Made by a program: the position numbers and the translations under genes. This document shows positions 19,801 through 21,558 of a stretch of DNA of 64,000 bases, piece by piece. Position 1 is the first letter of the stretch. Every line of letters starts with the position of its first letter. The notes beneath the pieces were generated by a model. The model saw only the letters and a list, made by a program, of their open reading frames with translations. It was not told the origin of the DNA and made no database searches. The stretch is from Dermatophagoides farinae (taxonomy: Eukaryota > Arthropoda > Arachnida > Sarcoptiformes > Pyroglyphidae), in the NCBI RefSeq assembly GCF_024713945.1, contig NC_134677.1, positions 8,392,001 through 8,456,000 of the forward strand. Direction: 5' to 3'.

Positions 19801-21558
19801 TACCCATCATTTTATGATTTTTGTCTGTTTTGTTTGTTTGTCTCGTTATTGTTATCGACATACTAACACACACGCACACGTATATAAGTTCCAAACAAAC
19901 GACAAGAACCAAGGACATCAACCCAATAGCTTTAAATCTAAAAAAAAAGAAAAAGAAAAATCCACGCTATATATATATGTGTGTGTGTGTGGAAGCAAAT
20001 TGAATTTTCCAATTTTTTTTCTCAGTCTTTGGTTTAGTTTTTTTTTTTTTTGGTTTGTTTGTTTTAACGATTAAATGAAGCATATCAATTAATTTGTCAT
20101 TAAGTGGTTTATACACACACACACGCACACAGAACAAGTGGTGGGTGGTTTGCTGATTTGCTGGTGTGTGTATGTGTGTCGGTTATACACAATTAATTAA
20201 ATCACAATCTTAGAATCTTAGTTATTCTAGACACATTTTATCGTATAACTGGGTTAGAGTGAATTCTAAATTTTATTATTGAACACCCGCACACATACAC
20301 ACACAAACACACAAGAATCAGCCGTTAACATATTCGATAACCAACATGTATAACCGTAATCGTATTATACGAAACGCAGAGACACAAAAAAAACAACGAA
20401 TAGAGAGAGATGGTTGGATAGAAAAACGGCAAATAATTTATGATCGAAAATTTTTCGTTTTTCATTTTAAATTGCAATTTATTTTTTTTTATTGATCAAT
20501 CAATTAAATGAAAACAGAATTGTCATTACAACCAAGAAAAAAAAAACTCAAAAGAAAAAACAAAAACATGAATTTGAAATAAAAACTCACTGGCTCATTG
20601 AATTCACATTGCACAAACCAGATGAACTTGATGTTTTGCATTGAAAAAAATTTGTTGTGCATCTAATAATCTTTTTCTTTTTCTTTTTATTTTTCTTTGA
20701 ATCCGGCAATTTCTCTCTCTCGTTTTAAATCTGGATTTTCATCTGGTCGGTTGGTTTTCGTATTTTATTCTTGGGTGTGTGTGTGTTTGTGATGATTTAA
20801 AATCTCGAAAAAAAAACGAAAATCGACGAAAAAAAAACGACGAATGTTCATAAAAAAAACAAAAACAAAACAAAAAATCAGCCGCAAATCCCATTATTTG
20901 TAAGTATCGATCCATCTTTGTTTATTCATTCATTTCATTTCTGTTTGTTTTTTTTTCTTCGTTTGTTTGTTGTTGATTTTTTCTGGTTCATTCACTTTTT
21001 TCTGTTTGTATTTGTTATTATACTTGTGTGTAGAGTGTGGGTGTGTGTGTATGTGTGTATGCGAAGCTCATCATCAAATAACAGTAATATCAGTACATAA
21101 TGCACGTATGTTTAAGATTCACGTTCTTTTTGTTGCATTACGATTTACCAACTTTGGAATAAAAAAAAAAAAGTTTTTTTTCATATAGAATATTCATTGG
21201 TCGACAACCAAAGAATAGATTTTTTCCCTCTCTGTCTCTCTGTCTCCAACTGCTGCTGTAGCTGAAGAAAAAAAAGCAAAAAAGGATTAGTTTGATGAAT
21301 AATATATATGAAAATTAGCATATTTTTTTCTCACATTCAAAATCTGGAATTTTTTTTTTTTCGTCTGAATGATATCATCACATATATGAAGAGCTTGTTT
21401 TTTTTGCCTGATTTTCTGTTTTTTTTTGTTGTTACAAAATCAAATCGAATTTTCATTGATTTCATTTTCTCTCTCTCTCTCTCATTCTCTCAAATATAGA
21501 TACCATCTTCAATCGCGACTATCGGAAAGCCTTTCGTAAAATTCTTTTTAAACGTTGA
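16867..21558 (+). CDS. Octalpha2R-like: Biogenic-amine GPCR, alpha2-adrenergic-like octopamine receptor type
   Basis: Class A amine receptor of about 915 aa. Exons are 16867-17924, 18004-19616, 20882-20899 and 21500-21558, all with GT-AG sites and matching phase. The extracellular N-terminus is Asn/His-rich with several N-x-S/T sites. TM1 starts near residue 189; TM2 has SLAVSDLL; TM3 ends in DRY at 289-291; TM5 has the SFYFPA region; TM6 reads FITAWLPFF; TM7 reads FWLGYGNS then AANPIIY. The tail is short ([11 protein letters not shown]...). Intracellular loop 3 is about 450 residues of Asp, Asn, His, Gln and Gly runs. TM2-TM4 (MPFSLARELMGYW, SLDRYWSITQAV, RTPSRAA) resemble insect alpha2-like octopamine receptors, which bind octopamine and usually lower cAMP through Gi; other amines are possible. 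The frame breaks twice in loop 3 and self-compensates. The start is uncertain because a Met run follows the first ATG. Confidence 0.9.
18130..18612 (+). other. Loop-3 segment in a shifted frame
   Basis: The TM5 frame runs into TGA at 18188-18190. The +1-shifted frame then stays open to 18626 with protein-like content (EEIDEQKAVKMNLISEYHSQ) among Asp and Asn runs. The original frame resumes at a GGT run near 18600-18612 (DSVNIMKTTLPPQ). The two shifts cancel, so TM6 is in the same frame as TM5. Two indels in simple repeats, or an intron spanning the segment, would each explain this. Confidence 0.7.
18320..18453 (+). repeat. In-frame GAT/AAC trinucleotide runs in receptor loop 3
   Basis: Codon runs for Asp (about 10 and 8 residues) and Asn within the coding exon. 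Similar His, Gln and Gly runs lie at about 18790-18880 and 19300-19392. These are length-variable simple repeats within coding sequence. Confidence 0.9.
19617..20881 (+). other. Receptor intron upstream of the microexon
   Basis: Donor CAG|GTTAGT at 19617 and acceptor ...AAATCAG at 20881. The intron is 1265 bp and filled with CA, GT and homopolymer repeats. I looked for another copy of the LNPxIY-coding sequence; two chance near-matches (about 19916 and 20704) lack splice sites. Confidence 0.8.
20882..20899 (+). CDS. Octalpha2R-like: 18-nt microexon encoding NPIIY of TM7
   Basis: The exon CCGCAAATCCCATTATTT lies between an acceptor CAG at 20879-20881 and a perfect donor GTAAGT at 20900-20905. 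Phase 1 on both sides gives A-A-N-P-I-I-Y after the NS at the end of exon 2. This supplies exactly the class A motif NSxxNPxxY, which is missing when the flanking exons are joined directly (NSDTIFNRD). The length is a multiple of three, so skipping would keep the frame. Confidence 0.88.
20900..21499 (+). other. Receptor last intron
   Basis: 600-bp intron from GTAAGT to a CT-rich acceptor ending ATATAG. It contains T-rich stretches and no other recognisable element. Confidence 0.8.

Follow-up and report, generated by a model that had tools for sequence, protein, structure and literature searches.

A putative 18-nucleotide micro-exon carries the NPxxY motif of an alpha2-adrenergic-like amine receptor gene in Dermatophagoides farinae

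Where is the NPxxY motif of a mite amine receptor whose longer exons, when joined directly, give a seventh transmembrane segment (TM7) without one? The gene occupies about 16867 to 21558 on the + strand of the 64-kb window that we analysed (C1:8392001-8456000; positions below are those of the window unless a contig is named). A preliminary description of this stretch had proposed that an 18-nt segment between CAG and GTAAGT, in phase 1 on both sides, carries the motif. Checking the sequence letter by letter confirmed the segment at the same position, 20882-20899, with phase 1 at both junctions. Joining it in restores NPxxY in TM7, and leaving it out gives a TM7 that lacks the motif. Micro-exons are exons of about 3-30 nt, and the segment has the form of a very short internal exon that is in frame and flanked by splice sites of its own (18 nt, AG/GTAAGT, phase 1-1). 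We consider it very probable that the segment is a true coding micro-exon that is included by default and was born of two closely spaced introns. This reading draws on the splice signals, the frame, the sole restoration of NPxxY and the introns of paralogous genes. Table 1 gives the layout of the gene.

Table 1. Features of the receptor gene and of the intron sequence before the micro-exon (TM, transmembrane segment).
Feature	Position	Strand	Description
Exon 1, coding part (start codon unsettled)	16867..17924	+	N-terminus, TM1-TM4, extracellular loop 2; open frame 16867..17928
Intron 1, 79 nt, phase 2	17925..18003	+	GTAAGT...TATAG
Exon 2	18004..19616	+	TM5, long low-complexity intracellular loop 3, TM6, first half of TM7 to GYGNS+G
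Intron 2, 1265 nt, phase 1	19617..20881	+	GTTAGT...ATCAG
AG-free stretch, 258 nt	20622..20879	+	leads up to the micro-exon acceptor; rich in pyrimidines at about 20670-20725 and in A over about the last 70 nt
Micro-exon, 18 nt, CCGCAAATCCCATTATTT	20882..20899	+	with flanking G and AT encodes A-A-N-P-I-I-Y, NPxxY of TM7
Intron 3, 600 nt, phase 1	20900..21499	+	GTAAGT...TATAG; splits the Tyr codon of NPxxY
Last coding exon	21500..21558	+	end of TM7, helix 8; TGA at 21556-21558

Splicing of intron 1 joins ...GYV+TT to A+TATAGTTC, which reads as GYVLYSSIGSFYFPAL. Exon 2 ends with ...GGT AAT TCA G at 19616 and is followed by GTTAGT, and retention of intron 2 would lead to an immediate stop (G|GT TAG). 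The micro-exon is preceded by ...AAAAAATCAG and followed by GTAAGT, and the last exon begins with AT|ACC at 21500, after ...CAAATATAG.

We compared the predicted protein with known receptor families. In a profile search the gene matched the seven-helix family PF00001 (7tm_1) exon by exon. Exon 1 scored 144.1 bits over profile positions 1-141 (E 7.3e-42 for 17389-17922), and the TM5 piece scored 21.1 bits over positions 156-194, which taken alone is under the cut-off of 30.5. The TM6-TM7 piece scored 51.1 bits (197-260) with the micro-exon and 34.1 bits (197-253) without it, so that with the 18 nt added the match reaches the last of the 260 profile positions. Among solved structures, the best match of exon 1 was the alpha-2C adrenergic receptor 6kuw (E 9.6e-50), and the eight best PDB sequences were all alpha-2C, 2A or 2A/2B constructs, followed by 5-HT1A. 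For TM6-TM7 the alpha-2A/2B chimera 6k41 ranked first among solved structures, narrowly ahead of 5-HT1F and D3, and TM7 aligns to this chimera without a gap when the micro-exon is included. By these sequence matches, the predicted product is an alpha2-adrenergic-like amine receptor of class A (rhodopsin-like), although the NPxxY of TM7 that marks this class is present only with the micro-exon. The earlier proposal of a mite amine GPCR is thereby borne out. A DNA search of the 62.4 Mb genome, which comprises 22 contigs, placed the gene at one locus and found no second copy; the next best TM6-TM7 match in the genome was 51% identical. The group 2 allergens make D. farinae very probable as the source: of seven loci of that family three were inspected, and an exon at L076 agrees with Der f 2 (1ahk) in 119 of 120 residues and less closely with Der p 2; L075 is more distantly related.

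Could the 18 nt be a chance look-alike and no exon at all? We enumerated the segments of 3-150 nt between AG and GT in 19617-21499. There were 451, of which 87 were in frame and open, and a single one, 20882-20899, gave NPxxY. The preliminary description had named transcripts with NPxxY from another exon as one outcome that would overturn its proposal, and none of the other 86 segments does so. Scanning whole codons of 19617-24000 for [ND]Pxx[YF] returned two DPxxF strings (20909 and 23462). A loosely defined candidate is not negligibly rare by chance, as 22 of 1000 first-order Markov copies of the intron contained some in-frame segment, 9-60 nt long, with NPxxY. Of 20,000 simulated introns, 34 had the exact register with a plain GT donor and none had it with a GTRAGT donor. 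The 64-kb window has two matches to the plain-GT pattern, both on the + strand (20882 and 58592) with none on the minus strand, and one match to the strict pattern. Over the 62.4 Mb genome the strict pattern has two matches, including 20882, and a reversed-pattern control also has two; it is not enriched genome-wide. The weight of the pattern comes from its location in the one intron that needs an NPxxY, and not from any genome-wide enrichment. Since the exact register with a consensus donor never arose in the simulations, and since the gene has no complete TM7 without the 18 nt, we regard a chance look-alike as extremely unlikely. From the sequence, a normal receptor is predicted to be made only if the 18-base exon is spliced in.

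As it stands in this assembly, the gene does not encode a complete receptor, because the frame of exon 2 is broken twice in the low-complexity loop 3 (18105-18630), a point that the preliminary description did not raise. Read in the frame of TM5, the sequence runs into a stop at 18188; another frame stays open over 18105-18623, and the frame of TM6 is open only from 18593 onwards. A GT-AG intron was rejected as the cause of the first break, as there is no GT between 18088 and 18194. Triplet repeats, which are prone to assembly indels, lie in the intervals of both breaks, and the two shifts cancel, returning to the TM5 frame. Together, the repeats and the cancelling shifts point to assembly indels, although a damaged allele or a pseudogene could give the same picture. 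If the gene were decaying in this strain, the micro-exon would have no current role. The two breaks, the first of them inexplicable as an intron, are what such decay might leave behind, but the TM segments, DRYW, WLPFF, NPxxY and the splice signals are all intact, and the repeats and the restored frame also speak against it. We therefore hold a pseudogene to be very unlikely.

We looked for the origin of the micro-exon in the introns of related genes. A genome search with TM6-TM7 returned 32 rows, two of which were the window gene itself, and 10 amine-type paralogue loci (L053-L058, L062, L064, L065 and L068) were read for introns. Only L053 lacks an intron in or beside TM7; the other nine have one, and in none of the ten does NPxxY lie on a micro-exon. 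The intron positions vary. L064 and L065 are interrupted at WLG|Y, in different phases, and in L068 an intron before WLNS is suggested by where its sequence starts, the upstream exon being unjoined. The intron of L055 falls after GYVNS| in phase 0; that of L062 falls after NP+T in phase 1, inside the NPxxY motif; and that of L058 falls in the Tyr codon (NPII+T|AY), in phase 1. L056 has its intron after or just past the Tyr, and L054 and L057 have theirs three codons on, in phase 2.

Two of these positions coincide or nearly coincide with the boundaries of the micro-exon. Intron 3 of the window gene is identical in position and phase to the intron of L058. Intron 2 lies 1 nt away from the intron of L055 and differs from it in phase, and because of this offset and phase difference a common origin of the upstream position is uncertain. 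The window gene has both introns, one exactly at and one within 1 nt of a position used singly in a sister gene, and between them an exon of 18 nt is left. We propose that the micro-exon may have arisen through two introns 18 nt apart, at or within 1 nt of the positions found in sister genes. In the one genome read, this history could reflect either intron gain in the window gene or intron loss in its sisters. As for the sister genes themselves, the sequence taken to be exon 1 of L058, which lies 11 kb upstream and is assigned by order only, matched 5-HT1B best, with alpha-1B close behind, and the TM6-TM7 piece of L055 matched 5-HT1A best. The L062 locus (C1:8626208) pairs with L074 on the same contig: one exon stops at NP+T|GTAAGT, and 3,353 nt further on the next one opens with GC-ATA-TAT (NPCIY).

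If the micro-exon is constitutive, it suggests that a micro-exon can originate by the meeting of two intron positions that sister genes use singly, here one exactly and the other to within 1 nt. The two meeting introns isolate one of the most conserved motifs of the receptor. A gene model that omits the exon would describe a receptor lacking NPxxY, which could be misread as atypical or dead.

Inclusion of the micro-exon is probably the default, because the receptor needs it, but tissue- or stage-specific skipping would be another reading of so short an exon. Under such regulation, transcripts without the exon would encode a receptor lacking NPxxY that is trapped in the cell or blocks the normal receptor. 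The preliminary description had suggested that skipping would yield an in-frame receptor lacking exactly the activation motif. The in-frame part of this suggestion stands, as 18 is a multiple of three and each junction is in phase 1; the second part does not, as skipping replaces AANPIIY by D and shortens TM7 by six residues. Since the helix loses more than its motif, misfolding would be the simpler expectation for the skipped product, and this speaks against a useful regulated form. The two sister-gene intron positions also explain the size of the exon without selection for a switch. We judge regulated skipping to be unlikely. It is similarly improbable, in our estimate, that a splicing switch tunes alpha2-type amine signalling through a non-signalling form that holds back the normal receptor, though class B receptors offer an analogy that makes a dominant-negative product of skipping conceivable. 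Were it regulated, the micro-exon would act as an in-frame on/off switch placed on the activation motif of a class A receptor.

The unusual acceptor of the micro-exon could be taken as a sign of regulation. Over the 20 nt at -23..-4 it is 80 percent A, with no nearby pyrimidine tract. Its pyrimidine fraction of 0.20 (tied for second lowest of 25 acceptors) compares with 0.75 at the downstream acceptor, a difference that could favour some skipping, and regulated exons are associated with long AG-free stretches and distant branch points. The AG-free run before the micro-exon is the 6th longest of 2089 on the + strand of the window. It is only moderately unusual, because seven runs on the minus strand exceed 258 nt and a run as long turned up in 41 of 3000 Markov copies made from the intron.

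We compared this acceptor with 24 others: 2 from the receptor gene, 15 from the paralogues and 7 from a neighbouring ATPase gene. The paralogue acceptors were chosen by eye; joining confirmed those in TM7 except that of L068, and those before TM6 were left unjoined. The ATPase gene is a many-exon gene on the minus strand (24700-30910) with a haloacid dehalogenase-like domain in 25426-26064, and we take it to be a plasma-membrane-type Ca2+ ATPase (PMCA) from motifs such as CSDKTGTLT in its translations. Eleven of its exon pairs were considered; two gave no junction and two were ambiguous, and the best-scoring junction was used for each of the remaining seven. A pyrimidine fraction of 0.55 or less was found at 7 of the 24 acceptors, with L068 tying at 0.20 and one PMCA junction (pmca7) lower still. 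Two of the 24 (L068 and g58a) have a longer AG-free stretch than the micro-exon. The micro-exon acceptor is therefore near the extreme on both measures, with parallels elsewhere in the genome.

Across the 25 acceptors, a low pyrimidine fraction goes with a long AG-free stretch (Spearman -0.59, p 0.002). The coefficient was -0.55 without the micro-exon (n=24, p 0.006), -0.49 without the micro-exon and L068 (n=23, p 0.017), and -0.40 when two PMCA junctions in simple repeats were also removed (n=21, p 0.07); the trend weakens once doubtful rows are taken out. In this genome it is not unusual for an acceptor to lack a pyrimidine tract close by, and distant branch points are perhaps frequent. As other acceptors anchored by coding sequence are similar, the odd acceptor of the micro-exon, near the extreme as it is, hardly counts as evidence of regulation, and after this control we set aside a weak acceptor as a sign of it.

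How, then, would a default exon be recognized? The splicing machinery may start at a distant branch point and scan the AG-free stretch until it meets the A-rich acceptor, and the pyrimidine tract that serves this acceptor is perhaps the one at about 20670-20725. We also considered an RNA structure that would bring the tract to the acceptor and rejected it, as the 278 nt concerned fold worse than their shuffles (z 1.94), with 197 of 200 shuffles folding at least as well. Rfam gave 0 matches at gathering scores in 16800-21700. Judged by its sequence context, the acceptor looks usable. Some skipping by noise would be compatible with default inclusion: a small fraction of transcripts would lack the exon and encode a useless protein. 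The 18-nt size and the low-pyrimidine acceptor make such leakage plausible, while the donor is the consensus GTAAGT; on balance we find it possible but somewhat doubtful.

We compared the window gene with known systems. Just before a neural micro-exon lies a pyrimidine tract with UGC. Like constitutive and neural micro-exons, the window exon is short (18 nt) and in frame, with a consensus donor and a conserved protein motif; it differs from the neural type in having 80 percent A at -23..-4 in place of the tract and UGC. In class B receptors (calcitonin, CRF1), a 42-nt exon in TM7 can be skipped, and its skipping is documented. The window exon is likewise short, in frame and inside TM7, and its loss would shorten the helix, but it belongs to another receptor class and its skipping is a possibility. 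Within the same genome, nine of the ten amine-type loci have, like the window gene, an intron in or beside TM7, and none has NPxxY on a micro-exon. We conclude that the segment is best read as an obligatory micro-exon in a putative class A receptor.

A related question is which receptor the gene may correspond to in other arthropods. Alpha2-adrenergic, likely octopamine, receptors are reported from arachnids (PMC6052906). Octalpha2R is named as one of at least four invertebrate octopamine receptor classes, and octopamine-type receptors include acaricide targets (amitraz; PMC8313232). The window gene resembles the alpha2-adrenergic-like octopamine receptors of arthropods (Octalpha2R, OA3) in that both of its halves are nearest to alpha2 structures, a likeness of sequence that makes the ligand putative. 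We know of no described arthropod alpha2-type octopamine receptor that, like the predicted one, has NPxxY on a micro-exon.

Literature searches returned no microexon bearing NPxxY in a GPCR, no alpha2 octopamine receptor of a mite, no octopamine receptor GPCR of Dermatophagoides farinae and no precedent for skipping of a TM7 exon. Searching for microexons together with mite genome annotation gave no title on mite receptors, and in a broader search the term microexon was unused among the matches listed. NPxxY combined with exon skipping led only to a paper on trout CXCRs, in which exon skipping appears in the title of a reference. A search for relatives in two other collections gave 23 pattern stretches in genome_contigs and 2 in viral_contigs, none of them confirmed.

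Several other genes lie in the window. A long open frame on the minus strand (32712-35603) encodes an ARID DNA-binding domain (PF01388) followed by low-complexity sequence, and a ZW10-like protein (PF20665) is encoded on the same strand at 50442-52064. A flavin-containing amine oxidoreductase (PF01593) was found at 53839-56049. The minus strand also holds a 344-residue open frame at 58533-59564 that contains numerous hydrophobic stretches and matched nothing in Pfam at 1e-4; its predicted product is possibly a divergent seven-helix receptor.
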